From Fidelibacterota bacterium (GTDB taxonomy: Bacteria > Fidelibacterota > Marinisomatia > SCGC-AAA003-L08 > TS1B11), in the NCBI GenBank assembly GCA_004124295.1, contig SCKI01000012.1, forward strand, positions 1 through 64,000: a stretch of 64,000 nt of DNA. Direction: 5' to 3'. Shown here in pieces: positions 4,114 to 38,151 of the stretch; positions within the stretch are counted from its first letter, which is position 1, and each line of letters begins with the position of its first letter. The notes under the pieces are model-generated. The model worked only from the letters and a program-made list of their open reading frames with translations. It made no database searches and was not told the DNA's origin. The position numbers and the translations under genes are program-made.

Positions 4114-4160
4114 GTGGCAGTGGCAGTGGCAGTGGCAGTGGCAGTCGCAGTTGGCAGGGG
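4114..4160. repeat. GGCAGT hexamer array after the TonB receptor stop codon
   Basis: Four to five tandem GGCAGT units followed by degenerate units (CGCAGT, TGGCAG) begin four bases after the stop codon. Related arrays follow the genes ending at 13934 and 17513 and occur inside polA. Short GTCC/CCTTAG tracts follow at 4170-4205. Confidence 0.85.
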
Positions 4161-4208
4161 GGTTCAGGTTTCAAGTCCTTGGTCCTTAGGCCTTAGTCCT
4201 TAGTCGTT

Positions 4209-4251
4209 ACCCTGAGCTGCCGAAGGGCCGGGGGGTGAGTGTTTCCTACCT
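4209..4251. repeat. CCCTGAG..CGAAGGG palindromic repeat with GGTGAGTG end
   Basis: ACCCTGAGCTGCCGAAGGG is followed by GGGGGGTGAGTG. The first part recurs inside polA (6934-6953) and, inverted, at 5571-5581 and 15910-15929. The GGTGAGTG end matches the right end of the hairpin elements at 5549 and 14007, so this appears to be a partial copy of that family. Confidence 0.75.
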
Positions 4252-5434: not shown

Positions 5435-5771
5435 TGCCCTTGCAAAGTCGCCACTGCGCCGCCGCCGTTCCCTACCCAACCCCATGCTCCTCTAGCCAAC
5501 GTGCTTCTGCGGCCGAGCCTGCGACGATGTGATCGGGCGCGCAAAAGACACTCACCCCCCGGCCCTTCGGCAGGCTCAGGGCAGGCCCCCTCTCTCCGGA
5601 GAGAGGGGGAGTCTGGCGCAGCCGGCCGGGGTGAGTGGTAGCAGCGGCTATCCACCATCCATTATCGGAAATCCGGCACCAGTGGCGGAGGGGACAGGCT
5701 GGATTGGGGGTGCCCTTGCAGAGTCGCCACTGCGACCCACTGCGACCCCTTGCAAAGTCGCCACTGCGACG
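5435..5771. repeat. Three direct repeats TGCCCTTGCAAAGTCGCCAC
   Basis: Copies lie at 5435-5458, 5711-5736 (one mismatch, CAGAG) and 5747-5771, each continuing into CACTGCG. The last copy ends just before the polA ribosome-binding region. The spacing (276 and 36 bases) is irregular, so it is not a CRISPR. Confidence 0.85.
5549..5637. repeat. Hairpin element with terminal inverted repeats CACTCACCCC/GGGGTGAGTG
   Basis: The 89-base element starts CACTCACCCC (5549-5558), ends GGGGTGAGTG (5628-5637) and centres on the perfect palindrome CCCCCTCTCTCC/GGAGAGAGGGGG (5586-5609). A second copy with the same ends, hairpin arms and AGTC(C)TGGCG.AGCCG right arm lies at 14007-14109. It encodes no protein and resembles a REP/MITE-like non-autonomous element. 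Confidence 0.85.
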
Positions 5772-5789
5772 CTAACATGACCCTCAATC

Positions 5790-8597
5790 ATGCCCGACCG
5801 TCAGCGTCTATTCGTCCTGGATGGCACGGCCCTGCTCTACCGGGCCCATTACGCCATGATCAACAATCCCCTCGTCACCTCGGAGGGGTTTGTCACGTCC
5901 GGCATCTCCGGCTTCATGAACTCCCTGGTCATGCTGCTGAAGGACGAATCGCCCGACTACCTGGTGGTCACCTTCGATGACAAGGCCAAGACTTTCCGCC
6001 ACGAGATGTACACCGAGTACAAGGCCACCCGGGAGAAGATGCCCGACGAACTGGCCGCCCAGATCGAGCCGCTGGATGAGGTCCTGAGGGCCCTCAAACT
6101 GATCATCCTGCGCATCCCCGGCTACGAGGCTGACGACATTATGGGCACCCTGGCCACCCAGGCCGAGGCCCGGGGCTGGGACACTTACCTGGTCACCGGC
6201 GACAAGGACATGATGCAGCTGGTCAACGACCACACCTTCGTCTATGCGCCGCAGAACCGGGGCAAACCGGTCACGATTTACGACCGCGACAAGGTCACCG
6301 AAAAATGGGGCGTGCCGCCGGAGAAGATCGTCGATCTGATGGGCCTCATGGGGGACAGTTCGGACAATATTCCGGGGGTCTCCGGCGTCGGCATCAAGTC
6401 TGCCGCCAAGTTGATCGGCGAGTACGGTTCTCTGGAGGAGGCCCTGGACCACGCCGATGAGGTGGCCAACAAGCGGGTCCGGGAAGGTCTGCAAAACGAC
6501 CGCGAGATGGCCCTGCTGTCGAAGGAGCTGGTGACCCTCGATTGCGCCGTGCCGCTGGGGCTCGAGCTCGAAACGCTGACGGTCAGCAACCTGGACGCCG
6601 CCGCCGCCGCCGGGCAGCTGCAACGCCTCGAGATCAGGGCCATCGTGCCGGCCCTCATGGCGCTGGTTGGGGAGCAGGTGGCGGAGCAGGCCACCGAGCA
6701 GCCGGAGAAAACCTACCGGGCCGTCACCACATCGGCCGAACTGGACGACCTCGCCGCCGCCCTGCAGGGGGCCGACTGGATATCTTTCGACACCGAGACC
6801 ACCGCCCTTGATCCCCTGCGGGCCGAGCTGGTGGGCATGTCCTTTTCCATCGCGCCGCACTCGGGCTGGTATGTGCCGGTCCAGTATCCCGCATCAGAAA
6901 TCAGTGGCAGTGGCAGTGGCAGTGAAGAAAGTCACCCTGAGGTTGCCGAAGGGGGCAGTGGCAGTCATCCAACATCCAACATCCAACATCCAGCATCCCC
7001 AGTCGGCTTGACCCTCGAGCAGATTCTGGCGGCGCTGGGACCCATCCTCGAGTCCCCCGACCGGCCCCTCATCGGCCAGAATATCAAGTACGACATGCAG
7101 GTGATGGCCCGCTACGGGGTGCAGCTGCGGGGTATCGCGTTCGATACCCTCATCGCCGCCCATCTCCTCGACCCCGACGGCACGGCCCACAAACTGGACG
7201 ACCTGAGCCTCAAGCACCTCAATTACCGCATGGCGCCCATCGAAGATCTCATCGGCAAGAAGGGCAAGGACCAGCGCTCCATGGCCGAGGTGCCGCTGGA
7301 GCAGATCACCGCCTACGCCAGCGAGGATGCCGACGTGGTGGGCTCTCTCTATCCCCTGTTCCGCAAGCCGCTGGAGCGGGACGGTCTGCTGCCGACCCTG
7401 GAACGGATCGAGCTTCCTCTGATACCGGTGCTGGCCGGGATGGAGCGCCAGGGCGTCTATCTCGACATCCCGTTCCTGGAGCAGATGTCCATCGACCTGG
7501 CCGGGCAGCTCGAGACGCTGCAGCAGCAGGTCCACGAGGCGGCGGGCGCGGAGTTCAACATCAATTCGCCCCAGCAGTTGGGGGTGATCCTGTTCGACCA
7601 GCTCGGCCTGCCCCAGATGCGCAAGCGCAGCACCGATGTGAACGTGCTGGAGCTGCTCCGGGATAAGCACCCGCTGCCGGGGCTGGTGCTCGACTACCGC
7701 CAGGTGAAGAAGCTCAAATCGACCTACATCGACGCCTTCCCCGAACTGGTCAACCCCGACACCGGGCGGGTGCACTCCACCTTCAGCCAGACCGTCGCCG
7801 CCACCGGCCGCCTCTCCAGCCGCGATCCCAATTTCCAGAACATCCCCATCCGCACCGAGCTGGGCCGGGAGATTCGCCGGGCCTTCCGGGCCCAGCAAGC
7901 GGGCTGGGGCATCCTTTCGGCGGACTATTCGCAGATCGAACTGCGCATCATGGCCCATCTGGCCCGGGAGGAGACCCTGCTGGCGGCCTTTGCCCAAGGG
8001 GCCGATGTGCACACGGCCACGGCGGCCATGGTGTTCGGCGTGGACCCGGCCGAGGTGTCGGCAGACATGCGGCGCAGCGCCAAAGTGGTAAACTTCGGCA
8101 TCATGTACGGCGCCGGCCCCTACCGCATGGCCCAGGAGCTCGACATCCCCATTCAGGAGGGGCGCGAGATCATCGACCGCTACTTCGCGACCTACCCCGG
8201 CATCCGCCGTTTTGTGGATGACCTGCTGGCCAAGGCCCGGGAGGACGGCTACGTGAGCACCCTGCTCGGCCGCCGCCGCAAGGTCCCCAACCTGAACGCC
8301 GGCAATCACAATCTGCGCACAGCCGATGAACGGATCGCGGTGAACATGCCCATCCAGGGCACGGCCGCCGAGCTGATCAAGATCGCCATGCTGGCTGTTG
8401 ACCGGCGGCTGAAGGATGAGAATTTCGAGGCCCGGATGATCCTGCAGATTCATGACGAACTGCTGTTTGAGACCCCCGAATCGGAGGTGGAGCGGCTGAG
8501 CGCCATGGTGGTGGCGGAGATGGAGCAGGCCATGTCCCTCGATGTGCCCCTTAAAGTTGACTGGGGCTACGGCCCCAGCTGGTACGAGGCCCACTGA
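5790..8597 (+). CDS. polA: DNA polymerase I with in-frame repeat insertion
   Basis: The 935-residue enzyme fills gaps and removes RNA primers. Domain order is 5' nuclease (1-~290), 3'-5' exonuclease (~305-540) and family A polymerase (~545-935). The exonuclease looks active: DTETT (D334, E336), GQNIKYD and YASEDAD. Polymerase motifs are DYSQIELR (A, D712), RRSAKVVNFGIMYG (B) and QIHDELLF (C, H888-D889). Between the first two exonuclease motifs, residues ~367-405 are a Gly/Ser-rich tract (SGSGSGSEES, EGGSGSHPTSNIQHP) coded by a copy of the intergenic repeat family. This copy keeps the frame and explains the protein being slightly longer than usual. The next gene starts in the stop codon (TGATG). 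Confidence 0.97.
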   Translation: MPDRQRLFVLDGTALLYRAHYAMINNPLVTSEGFVTSGISGFMNSLVMLLKDESPDYLVVTFDDKAKTFRHEMYTEYKATREKMPDELAAQIEPLDEVLRALKLIILRIPGYEADDIMGTLATQAEARGWDTYLVTGDKDMMQLVNDHTFVYAPQNRGKPVTIYDRDKVTEKWGVPPEKIVDLMGLMGDSSDNIPGVSGVGIKSAAKLIGEYGSLEEALDHADEVANKRVREGLQNDREMALLSKELVTLDCAVPLGLELETLTVSNLDAAAAAGQLQRLEIRAIVPALMALVGEQVAEQATEQPEKTYRAVTTSAELDDLAAALQGADWISFDTETTALDPLRAELVGMSFSIAPHSGWYVPVQYPASEISGSGSGSEESHPEVAEGGSGSHPTSNIQHPASPVGLTLEQILAALGPILESPDRPLIGQNIKYDMQVMARYGVQLRGIAFDTLIAAHLLDPDGTAHKLDDLSLKHLNYRMAPIEDLIGKKGKDQRSMAEVPLEQITAYASEDADVVGSLYPLFRKPLERDGLLPTLERIELPLIPVLAGMERQGVYLDIPFLEQMSIDLAGQLETLQQQVHEAAGAEFNINSPQQLGVILFDQLGLPQMRKRSTDVNVLELLRDKHPLPGLVLDYRQVKKLKSTYIDAFPELVNPDTGRVHSTFSQTVAATGRLSSRDPNFQNIPIRTELGREIRRAFRAQQAGWGILSADYSQIELRIMAHLAREETLLAAFAQGADVHTATAAMVFGVDPAEVSADMRRSAKVVNFGIMYGAGPYRMAQELDIPIQEGREIIDRYFATYPGIRRFVDDLLAKAREDGYVSTLLGRRRKVPNLNAGNHNLRTADERIAVNMPIQGTAAELIKIAMLAVDRRLKDENFEARMILQIHDELLFETPESEVERLSAMVVAEMEQAMSLDVPLKVDWGYGPSWYEAH
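6897..7005. repeat. Dispersed repeat copy inside the polA reading frame
   Basis: The segment contains GGCAGT units (6903-6923), ACCCTGAGGTTGCCGAAGGG (6934-6953), further GGCAGT units and then a CATCCAACATCCAACATCC track (6965-6996). The same three modules occur between genes at 4114-4228 and 17503-17562. The insertion keeps the frame and adds about 37 residues. Confidence 0.9.
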
Positions 8598-15733: not shown

Positions 15734-16007
15734 TCCGAGGCTGGGCCACGACCGCCAAGCCTGAGCACTTCATGCGCCCGGCAACATGAGCACAGACTCT
15801 AGCGAAATGCCGTGCGGCACACGGCAGGCACCTCTCCCTGCTGACCACCCGTCTTCACTCCATTAGCCCGGGCAAACTGACCACTGAGTCCCAGCCCCCA
15901 GCCCCTAGACCCTTCGGCTTCGCTCAGGGCAGGCAGGCTCAGGGTGACGGGGTGCCCTCCCTGTCCTCTGGACCCTGTGGGTCTCGCTGTGGTTCTCTCC
16001 CCAAAAC
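15555..16007. other. 450-base gene-free region with repeat remnants
   Basis: No supported gene. AT-rich near 15555-15700, then GC-rich. CCCTTCGGCTTCGCTCAGGG (15910-15929) and GGCAGGCTCAGGGTGAC (15931-15947) belong to the dispersed palindromic repeat family. The promoter of the symporter is presumably here, but I cannot identify it. Confidence 0.65.
15910..15947. repeat. CCCTTCGGC..GCTCAGGG repeat copy
   Basis: CCCTTCGG, a short spacer, then CTCAGGG, followed by a second CTCAGGGTGAC unit. Same family as 4209-4228, 5571-5581 and 6934-6953. Confidence 0.7.
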
Positions 16008-17513
16008 GTGCTTACTTTCGGCGACCTTGTTCTCCATCAGAGCCATTCGCTAGCGGCCGTGGATCGCGTCCCCACCGTCGCCCCTCTCGATCTGACGATC
16101 CTGGTCCTGTTCCTTGGCGGAACGATGGCTTACGGGCTCTGGCAGGGCCGCCGCAACCGCACCACCGCCGCCTACTTCCTCGGTGAGCGCAACCTCCCCT
16201 GGTGGACCGTCATGCTGTCGGTGGTGGCTACCGAGACTTCGGTGCTCACCTTCATCAGCGTGCCGGGGCTGGCCTACCGGGGCAACTGGCACTTTTTGCA
16301 ACTGGCCCTGGGTTATGTGCTGGGGCGGGTCGCCGTGAGCTACATCCTGCTGCCACTGTATTACAAGGAGGGGGTCACCTCCATCTACCAGTTCATCGGC
16401 GAGCGGTTCGGGGCGCTGGTGCAGAAGGTCACCTCGGCCATTTTCATGGTAACCCGCATCCTGGCCGACGGCGTGCGGTTTTTCGCCACCGCCCTGCTGG
16501 TGCAGACCCTGCTGCCGGTCAGTCTGCTGCAGGCGGTGCTGATGATGGGAGGCGTGACGCTGGTCTACACCCTGGCCGGCGGCATCAAGGCGGTGGTCTG
16601 GATGGACAGCTTCCAGTTTGTCCTCTACCTGGGCGCGGCGGTGATATCGCTGATCTATCTTCACGGCCTGCTGGACGGCGGCTTGGCTGGCGGCTGGGCG
16701 GCGCTGGGTGCGGCGGGCAAACTGGAGCTGTTCAATTTCCGGTCCGACGGCGCATTTTTCTCCGCCTCTAACGCTTACCTGTTTCCGGCGGCGGTCATCG
16801 GGGGCGGCATCCTCTCCTTCGCCTCCCACGGGGTCGACTACATGATGGTGCAACGGGTGCTGGCCACCCGGAGCCTGAAGGAGGGCCGCATGGCACTGGT
16901 GGGCAGCGGTCTGTTCGTCCTGTTCCAGTTCAGCCTGTTCCTGCTGGTGGGGGGGTTCCTGTGGGTGCTGTTTGCCGGCGCCGACCTGGGGGTGGACAAG
17001 GAGTTCCCCCGTTTCATCGCCGAATACCTGCCGGTGGGACTGAAGGGGCTGTTGCTGGCGGGCGTGCTGGCGGCGGCCATGTCCACCCTGAGCTCGTCCA
17101 TCAACTCTCTGGCCTCCTCCACGGTGAACGACTGGCTGGCCCGGAAGGACGACCTGCGCCTCTCGCGCCTGGTGAGCCTCGGCTGGGGCCTTGTACTGAT
17201 GGGGGTGGCCCTGCTCATCGACACCCGGGACAATCCGGTGGTGGTGCTGGGGCTGCAGATCGCCTCCTACACCTACGGAGGGCTGCTGGGCCTGTTCCTG
17301 CTGGGGCGGCTGGAGGAGGAGATTCATCCGGCGGCGCTGATCAGCGGACTGCTGGGAGCGGCGGCGATGGTGCTGTGGCTGCGCAGCTTGGGTATCGCCT
17401 GGACCTGGTGGATTCTGGCGGCGACACTGTTTAACATGGCTCTGGCCTTGGGCCTGAACCGGGTGATAGGGGCGGTGAGGGGGAGGCGTGGGGAAAATGG
17501 AGGTGGACAGTAG
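16008..17513 (+). CDS. Sodium:solute symporter (SSS family)
   Basis: About 501 residues with 13 or so membrane segments. Family signs include the N-terminal LTILVLFLGGTMAYGLWQG helix, FLGERNLPWWTVMLS with ATETS, the VYTLAGGIKAVVWMD segment and SFASHGVDYMMVQRVLATR (SSS signature region), then AAAMSTLSSSINSLASST (sodium-site region). It imports a solute with sodium; substrate is not determined by sequence. Its place between the NagZ fusion and NamZ suggests an amino sugar or muropeptide fragment. Start uncertain: GTG 16008 or GTG 16059. The stop TAG lies inside a repeat element. Confidence 0.88.
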   Translation: MLTFGDLVLHQSHSLAAVDRVPTVAPLDLTILVLFLGGTMAYGLWQGRRNRTTAAYFLGERNLPWWTVMLSVVATETSVLTFISVPGLAYRGNWHFLQLALGYVLGRVAVSYILLPLYYKEGVTSIYQFIGERFGALVQKVTSAIFMVTRILADGVRFFATALLVQTLLPVSLLQAVLMMGGVTLVYTLAGGIKAVVWMDSFQFVLYLGAAVISLIYLHGLLDGGLAGGWAALGAAGKLELFNFRSDGAFFSASNAYLFPAAVIGGGILSFASHGVDYMMVQRVLATRSLKEGRMALVGSGLFVLFQFSLFLLVGGFLWVLFAGADLGVDKEFPRFIAEYLPVGLKGLLLAGVLAAAMSTLSSSINSLASSTVNDWLARKDDLRLSRLVSLGWGLVLMGVALLIDTRDNPVVVLGLQIASYTYGGLLGLFLLGRLEEEIHPAALISGLLGAAAMVLWLRSLGIAWTWWILAATLFNMALALGLNRVIGAVRGRRGENGGGQ

Positions 17514-17562
17514 CAGTGGCAGTTGGCAGGGACATCCAATATCCAACATCCTATATCCTGGA
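17503..17562. repeat. AGTAGCAGTGGCAGTTGGCAG plus CATCCAATATCCAACATCC repeat
   Basis: The element spans the symporter stop codon and runs towards the next gene. It joins the GGCAGT-type array to a CATCCAATATCCAACATCC track, the same combination found inside polA at 6954-6996. Confidence 0.85.
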
Positions 17563-36660: not shown

Positions 36661-38151
36661 GTGCCGCGGGCACCGTTTCCGCAGAATCATTTTTTGAGGC
36701 GTCTGGGTGCCGAATTGGGTTATGTGAATACTGATCTGAACGAGGGCGCCGTCCCTGCCGAGACCGGAGCAACCGGTATCCGGCGGGTCAGCTTCCATAC
36801 TCTCGGATGCAAGCTGAACCGGTCCGAAACCGACGCCCTGGCGGCCCAATTTGCTGCCCGGGGCTACCAGATCGTTCCCTTTCGGCAGCCTGCCGACCTG
36901 GCCGTCATCAACACCTGCACCGTCACCGGGGAGGCTGACGCCAAAAGCCGCCAGGCGATCCGCCAGGCTGTGGATCAGTCCCGGGCCACCCGCGTCGCCG
37001 CCATGGGCTGCTACACCCAGATGCACCCGCAGGAGGCCGCCGGGCTGGAAGGGATCGACCTGCTGCTGGGCACCCGCAACAAGTTTGAACTCATCGATCT
37101 GCTGCCCGAACTGGAGCGCCGCCCGGCCGGGGCCCCCCTGGTGCGTATCACCCCAACCGGTGAGGACCGGGTGTTTGATGAGGCGCCCTCCATTTCCGCC
37201 ACCGACCGGACCCGGGCTGCCCTGAAGGTCCAGGACGGTTGCGACTACGCCTGCACCTACTGCATTATCCCGGCGGCCAGAGGCGTCAGCCGGAGCCGGC
37301 CGTTGGCGGACTGCCTGGCCGAGGCCCGGGAACTGGTGCAGCGGGGTTATCGGGAGATCGTGCTCACCGGCGTTAATCTGGGCGCCTGGACTGCCGGAAA
37401 CCTGGTTTTCGACGATCTCCTGGAGGCGGTGAGCAATGTGGCCGGACTCCGGCGCATCAGGATCAGCTCCATTGAACCGAACCTGATCACCGAGCGGACC
37501 CTGCAGCTGCTGGCGGACAGGGAGAATATCTGCCACCATCTGCACCTGCCGCTGCAGCACGCCTCGGACCGGATACTGGGGGCCATGCGCAGGCGCTACA
37601 GTTTCGCCGACTATCGCCGCAAGGTGGACCGGGCCGTGGAACTGTTGCCCGATGTGGCCATCGGCGCCGATGTCATGGTAGGGTTCCCCGGCGAGAATGC
37701 GGAGGATTTCGAAGCACTTGCCCAGGCGTTGGCTGACCTGCCCAACAGCTACTACCATATTTTCCGCTACTCGGAGCGGGCGGGGACCCTGGCAACGGCC
37801 CTGGCCGGCAGCGTTGATCCCCGGGTCCGGCGGGAGCGGGCGCAGGTCCTGCGGGAGATCGCCCTGGAAAAGCAGCGGGCCTTCGCCCGGCGGTTTGTCG
37901 GGCAGACCCGCACGGTGTACTTCGAAAGCCGCACTGGGGAAGGCCGGTGGAGCGGTCTCACCGGCAATTACCTGCGCGTGCTCGTCTCTTCCAGTGATGA
38001 TATGGCCGCCCAACTGCGGCCGGTTGCCTTGCTGCGCGAATCCGGCGGCAGCCTTCATGGCGCCTTGTTGCAGGGCACTTTGTCGCGCGGCGCATCGTTG
38101 CCCGGCGCATCGTTGCCCGGCGCATCGTTGCCCGGCACAGTGGCGGCGTGA
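36661..38151 (+). CDS. mtaB: tRNA t6A37 methylthiotransferase
   Basis: About 496 residues, MiaB-type radical-SAM enzyme adding methylthio to t6A at tRNA position 37. Domains: UPF0004 with TLGCKLNRSETD, NTCTVTGEAD and GCYTQ (three auxiliary-cluster cysteines), radical SAM with CDYACTYC, then TRAM-like end. The last ~28 residues carry 15-base tandem repeats. The start is uncertain: GTG 36661, or GTG 36724, which fits the family length better. GTGA overlap with the kinase gene. Confidence 0.92.
   Translation: MPRAPFPQNHFLRRLGAELGYVNTDLNEGAVPAETGATGIRRVSFHTLGCKLNRSETDALAAQFAARGYQIVPFRQPADLAVINTCTVTGEADAKSRQAIRQAVDQSRATRVAAMGCYTQMHPQEAAGLEGIDLLLGTRNKFELIDLLPELERRPAGAPLVRITPTGEDRVFDEAPSISATDRTRAALKVQDGCDYACTYCIIPAARGVSRSRPLADCLAEARELVQRGYREIVLTGVNLGAWTAGNLVFDDLLEAVSNVAGLRRIRISSIEPNLITERTLQLLADRENICHHLHLPLQHASDRILGAMRRRYSFADYRRKVDRAVELLPDVAIGADVMVGFPGENAEDFEALAQALADLPNSYYHIFRYSERAGTLATALAGSVDPRVRRERAQVLREIALEKQRAFARRFVGQTRTVYFESRTGEGRWSGLTGNYLRVLVSSSDDMAAQLRPVALLRESGGSLHGALLQGTLSRGASLPGASLPGASLPGTVAA
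38059..38133 (+). repeat. 15-base tandem repeat in the mtaB 3' end
   Basis: Three perfect GGCGCATCGTTGCCC units (38089-38133) follow two degenerate units (38059, 38074). Each codes a pentapeptide G-A-S-L-P, resembling the A-x-L-x-x pentapeptide repeat pattern. In-frame copy changes would not disrupt the gene. Confidence 0.9.

Follow-up and report, generated by a model that had tools for sequence, protein, structure and literature searches.

The polA gene of the Candidatus Neomarinimicrobiota genome studied here carries repeat DNA in frame, within the segment encoding the 3′-5′ exonuclease domain. We consider it very probable that this insert is an RPE-like (Rickettsia palindromic element-like) in-frame capture of an intergenic repeat composite by an ancestor of the genus, tolerated in a loop and later reshaped. 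Most accounts of intergenic repeats that invade housekeeping proteins in frame concern Rickettsia and Wolbachia, which are host-restricted bacteria. The polA case is a rare parallel to the protein-invading repeats of Rickettsia in another phylum, among a small group of uncultured Neomarinimicrobiota. The domain hit is the one responsible for proofreading in the main repair polymerase, and a pair of sister species shows how the insert evolves.

Repeat modules in frame within polA

In the window (the whole stretch of 64,000 nucleotides that was analysed) polA spans 5790-8597 on the + strand as an intact ORF of 935 codons. Its product is a full-length DNA polymerase I (match to NF004397, 1076 bits) with all three domains, 5_3_exonuc, DNA_pol_A_exo1 and DNA_pol_A, and with intact DEDDy exonuclease residues. 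The gene, its motifs and the parts of the insert are as follows.

5790-8597, + strand: polA, 5′-3′ exonuclease, 3′-5′ exonuclease and polymerase, 935 aa (NF004397, 1076 bits)
6786-6800, + strand: ExoI motif FDTET, residues 333-337 (D334, E336), invariant in 30 aligned sequences
6891-7004, + strand: extra loop segment between ExoI and ExoII, residues 368-405, predicted disordered; absent in relatives outside the genus
About 6902-6998, + strand: repeat-derived core of the insert, matching many intergenic copies (genome and local matches)
6906-6923, + strand: (GGCAGT)3 hexamer array, translated Gly-Ser (pattern)
6932-6953, + strand: palindrome module TCACCCTGAGGTTGCCGAAGGG, translated (S)HPEVAEG, with its CCCTGAGGTTGCCGAAGGG part at 6935-6953 (pattern)
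6954-6965, + strand: (GGCAGT)2, translated GSGS (pattern)
6966-6998, + strand: CATCCAA heptamer track, 4.7 copies, translated HPTSNIQHPAS (pattern, tandem repeat)
7074-7094, + strand: ExoII motif GQNIKYD, residues 429-435 (D435) (alignment)
7314-7334, + strand: ExoIII motif YASEDAD (Y509, D513) (alignment)

The insert is built of (GGCAGT)n, an imperfect palindrome GTCACCCTGAG-N5-CGAAGGG and CATCCAA heptamers, in the order (GGCAGT)3 - GAAGAAAG - TCACCCTGAGGTTGCCGAAGGG - (GGCAGT)2 - CATCCAACATCCAACATCCAACATCCAGCATCC, and it keeps the polA reading frame. Across the 30 aligned sequences D334, E336, Y509 and D513 never vary and D435 hardly does; as all five DEDDy residues are kept, the proofreading chemistry of PolA should be intact despite the insert. 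The first-pass annotation had described an in-frame repeat insert in this domain, at 6889-7005, with intact motifs on both sides. That description holds, the modules being intergenic elsewhere and the DEDDy residues being kept, and the coordinates were correct to within a few bases. We also considered a repeat pre-adapted to coding by freedom from stop codons and rejected this idea, as three of the six frames of the insert are open, a number equalled or exceeded by 19% of mononucleotide shuffles.

The insert is repeat DNA

The insert DNA is repeat DNA. When the 109-bp insert was searched against its own genome (23 contigs totalling 2.55 Mb, 92.6% complete), 51 matches were obtained, of which 29 lay off-site with E<0.01, the best at 1.4e-10; for a control of the same length (109 bp), taken from the polA sequence that follows, no match in this genome was better than E 0.24. 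In a local search the match depth climbed at about 6902 and dropped at about 6998, and 118-bp windows elsewhere in polA had 0-7 weak matches, versus 88-163 at the insert, in a set of loci chosen by these same modules; the unbiased test is the genome-wide comparison of insert and control. The three module types were found 10, 4 and 4 times in the window, where 0.49, 0.09 and 0.01 were expected by chance. Searching the two genus genomes for the palindrome CCCTGAG-N3-9-CGAAGGG gave 19 hits in one and 25 in the other, against 0-1 when the pattern was reversed; (GGCAGT)3 and the heptamer track also exceed their reversed-pattern controls, which were near zero. Among eleven family genomes, the palindrome is present in ten, genomes without a polA insert among them, and (GGCAGT)3 in six.

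Fourteen palindromes have 6-8 paired arm bases, versus about two in arm shuffles, among loci that were partly selected by pattern. As a single-strand hairpin, only the mutS copy described below folds better than its shuffles (z -2.2); the palindromes of polA do not. No Rfam match to a known structured RNA was found in the window between 3900 and 18000, and neither the exact palindrome CCCTTCGACAAGCTCAGGG nor its variants turned up in the open-access literature searched.

Copies outside polA and the order of their modules

Four loci of the window carry the modules outside polA.

4114-4228, + strand: intergenic (GGCAGT)n array, then CCCTGAGCTGCCGAAGGG (pattern)
5563-5581, - strand: intergenic palindrome module upstream of polA (pattern)
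15910-15929, - strand: intergenic palindrome module (pattern)
17512-17558, + strand: composite with AGCAGTGGCAGT and a CATCCAATATCCA track (pattern, own-genome match)

The two genomes of the genus contain 67 strict module copies, which were sorted into coding and intergenic by a simple coding model of 3-base periodicity with the window as its training sequence. Five have in-frame coding sequence on both sides, and all five are in polA. Looser clustering gave 78 clusters, three of them in frame, namely the two polA inserts and a GGCAGT pair in locus L021. Strict modules thus revealed no other internal coding insertion in these two genomes, and the pair added by the looser scan is only 12 bp long.

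Several repeats extend into gene ends, where they are part of the reading frame. In the own genome, a lipoate-protein ligase-like ORF (L007, about 1480-1600; C10:18000) has a C-terminal tail made of GGCAGT, CATCCAA-like and GGAAGAA modules that overlaps the start of the next ORF, and a phage portal protein-like ORF (L011, about 1400-1520; C18:78600) has the repeat-encoded end SGSGSGESRGDSHPEPARPELSRKVEG. Reverse-strand GGCAGT repeats encode an apparent signal-peptide-like start, MLLPLPLLLLLLVAPLAP, beside a palindrome (L213, 1530-1580; G001:C17:241432), and the N-terminal linker ATATATATAT of a secreted-looking protein (L169, about 1500; G001:C7:495951). Elsewhere in the window, at 38088-38136, there is a perfect 15-bp tandem repeat, CGGCGCATCGTTGCC, in 3.3 copies, the unit length being a multiple of three.

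In the two genus genomes, GGCAGT follows the palindrome within 12 bp in 8 of 44 cases (nine by a second count) and TCA precedes it in 20 of 44. An intergenic locus of the sister genome (L137), with a best local-match E of 5e-10 within the loci searched, reads CAGCAGTCACCCTGAGCCCGTCGAAGGGGGCAGTGGCATTAGCAGTGGCAGTCATCCAACATCCAATCATCCAATATCC, a palindrome followed by GGCAGT and then CATCCAA, just as these modules succeed one another on the right-hand side of the insert. A second locus of that genome (L214), upstream of another gene, has the same module order with longer spacers. This shared order at L137 and L214 favours entry of the composite into polA en bloc, although the composite may instead have grown stepwise within the gene.

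Distribution of the insert among relatives

The first-pass annotation had proposed aligning polA of relatives, and this alignment found the insert absent outside the genus and a counterpart in the sister species. The sister (G001, SCKJ01000005, TS1B10-1), whose PolA is 75% identical to that of the window species, has its insert, NAGHPEPVEGGSSSSSGQEEVAVASSGGSGSSHPEPVEGSHIEHPASKGTG, at the same polA loop, within a 326-kb contig of a separate assembly; in both species the polA ORF is open and in frame. The two palindromes of the sister insert are identical, and it has a GGAAGAAGTGGCGG block that the insert of the window lacks. The right half is colinear in the two species, running from a GGCAGT-rich stretch through the GTCACCCTGAG palindrome to CATCC(A)n ending in CATCCAGCATCC. 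The net gain in length is about 32 aa in the window species and about 44 aa in the sister, and the insert diverges far faster than the flanking polA sequence of the two species.

The usual short loop without an insert is found in the family members with a readable loop (G004, G005, G006, G007, G008 and G010), as well as in the aligned sequences of more distant Neomarinimicrobiota and of other bacteria; G002 has the same break in the match at the loop position. Because relatives lack the insert though the palindrome is family-wide, the insert is limited to the genus among the genomes compared, and the repeats are older. This comparison covers two genomes of the genus and genomes that are mostly metagenome-derived, and the empty polA site of the relatives is too diverged for exact insert borders or a target-site duplication to be read from it. 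Some distant relatives have a moderately long loop of unrelated sequence (e.g., L105), which shows that the loop tolerates changes in length.

Predicted structure of the loop

An AlphaFold2 model built on the 30-sequence alignment had a mean pLDDT of 87.5 and superimposed on Klenow fragment structures with TM scores of 0.94-0.95 (normalised by Klenow) and an rmsd of 2.2-2.4. Residues 368-405 fall below pLDDT 50, with blocks near 29, while the flanking exonuclease blocks exceed 90. The model places them between the strand 358-363 and the helix 409-420, and in the sequence alignment the insert takes the place of about five residues that follow VAH in Klenow. The insert is therefore predicted to be a disordered surface loop inside the exonuclease domain. 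It had been called a protein linker; its place between the exonuclease motifs is borne out, but the term goes too far for a predicted disordered loop within one domain, which does not join two domains.

Palindrome insertions in mutS and in a PD40 protein

Among 41 palindromes read in family members, two lie in genes whose orthologues lack exactly that segment. One is in mutS of G007 (L240, G007:C99, about 600-624), where a 24-bp in-frame insertion, CGGCCCTTCGACTGACCTCAGGGC, adds eight codons (residues AGPSTDLR). In G008 (L270), 94% identical in the aligned DNA, the site is empty and reads GGTGGCACGGC^AGGCCTGG; seven other family members also lack the MutS segment, which makes eight without it. 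At the borders of the insertion a direct repeat of at most 3 bp (GGC) is possible. The other is in a gene for a PD40 beta-propeller protein of G006 (L236 / L255, G006:C270), where 24 bp of palindrome encode ASPEPAEG, absent in five orthologues. These two were among five in-frame palindrome matches in the family genomes; the remaining three (L216, L229 and L234) were set aside without orthologue comparison. As filled and empty sites can be compared in both genes, the palindrome alone can be inserted, in a unit of 24 bp, and in mutS this unit of movement is directly visible and testable against the 94%-identical empty site.

The first-pass annotation had spoken of a mobile repeat. For the palindromic module this is confirmed in relatives by the mutS insertion and its empty site; for the composite as a whole, we infer mobility. 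The own genome (92.6% complete) has no gene for a Y1/RAYT transposase (PF01797), and RAYT-driven REP mobility was rejected on that ground. Upstream of mutS in G007 and G008 (L240, 1-140) lies an array of palindromes whose outer arms co-vary (ATGC..GCAT, ACCC..GGGT), suggesting that paired arms are maintained there.

Origin of the insert

According to the explanation that we favour, a composite (GGCAGT)n - GTCACCCTGAG-N5-CGAAGGG - GGCAGT - (CATCCAA)n would have entered polA in an ancestor of the genus, at the short loop that links strand three of the 3′-5′ exonuclease sheet to the next helix. It would have been retained because the frame was preserved and the loop tolerated the change in length, after which duplication, loss and slippage would have reshaped its modules separately in each of the two species. 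We infer that the composite entered once, in the ancestor and en bloc, that it is effectively neutral, and that it is translated into a disordered loop, with proofreading left roughly intact. The strong differences in module content and order between the two inserts, with duplicate palindromes and GGAAGAAGTGGCGG in G001, could also reflect two independent insertions, one per species, at a tolerant loop that acts as a hotspot, and the R. japonica genome paper (PMC3767692) likewise leaves room for hotspots where RPEs of different classes share a site. The colinear right halves of the inserts speak against this, and we regard it as unlikely. Slippage in polA could have produced a Gly/Ser-rich low-complexity linker de novo, convergent with the intergenic repeats, since arrays of hexamers and heptamers are known to slip and a GGCAGT array remains in frame whatever its copy number. 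Yet the palindrome and CATCCAA are not Gly/Ser repeats and stand in the same order with GGCAGT between genes of the sister genome, so that we give slippage hardly any weight. The same is true of an assembly or binning chimera joining repeat DNA to polA: repeats favour misassembly and the genomes are mostly metagenome-derived, but a same-site insert in the separate assembly of the other species, in frame on its 326-kb contig, makes a chimera extremely improbable, and we discarded it.

The insert could also be adaptive and tune the proofreading or strand switching of Pol I. It sits in the exonuclease domain, it has been kept in two species 25% apart in PolA, and a second fidelity gene, mutS, gained a module in a relative. 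However, its far faster divergence than that of the flanks and its predicted disorder are expected under tolerance, and only two fidelity genes are involved; we hold adaptation to be very unlikely. A bolder reading, to which we assign a low but somewhat higher probability, takes the palindrome as a codon-scale mobile element (24 bp, eight codons) that is still moving, would enter turns of conserved proteins repeatedly in frame, polA and mutS included, and would then seed longer disordered inserts that alter replication fidelity.

Comparison with known repeat systems

Like REP and BIME elements (GTAG/CGTC-tagged REPs with RAYT; PMC3733652), the modules include short imperfect palindromes (20-40 bp) that lie scattered between genes, often paired or clustered, and they are numerous, one genus genome having 19 copies and the other 25. 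Unlike them, they occur in a genome without Y1 (PF01797), have copies inside coding genes and form weak hairpins in polA. Bacterial MITEs (ERIC/RU-1, the 107-bp Correia element and Coxiella QMITE1; PMC2229807, PMC10969869) are likewise small non-autonomous repeats with in-frame fusions, but the unit found here is far shorter. The 7-bp intergenic arrays of Beggiatoaceae (TAACTGA; PMC4679880) resemble the CATCCAA track, which differs in that it belongs to a composite and, inside polA, lies within a reading frame.

The closest likeness is to the RPEs and the Wolbachia palindromic elements (Ogata et al., 2000, 2002, 2005, as described in PMC2229807, PMC10969869 and PMC3767692). As with RPEs, a short repeat family is both intergenic and in frame within conserved protein genes, and the orthologue of a related species, the sister polA, keeps an insert at the same locus; RPE orthologues do so too, sometimes with another RPE class (PMC3767692). 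An RPE-bearing protein can remain active, as is the case for Gmk (as cited in PMC2229807). The RPE-type unit itself, about 100-150 bp long with an encoded ORF, long and stable stem-loops and terminal inverted repeats, was not found; the smallest unit here is ~24 bp, in mutS and the PD40 gene, and the polA hairpins are shuffle-like. The polA insert is, moreover, a mosaic that includes two tandem-repeat modules, it belongs to a different phylum, and the palindrome is read in differing frames (HPEPVEG in polA versus PSTDLR in mutS). The polA insert thus works like an RPE but is not a member of the RPE family, from which it differs in unit length and stem-loop.
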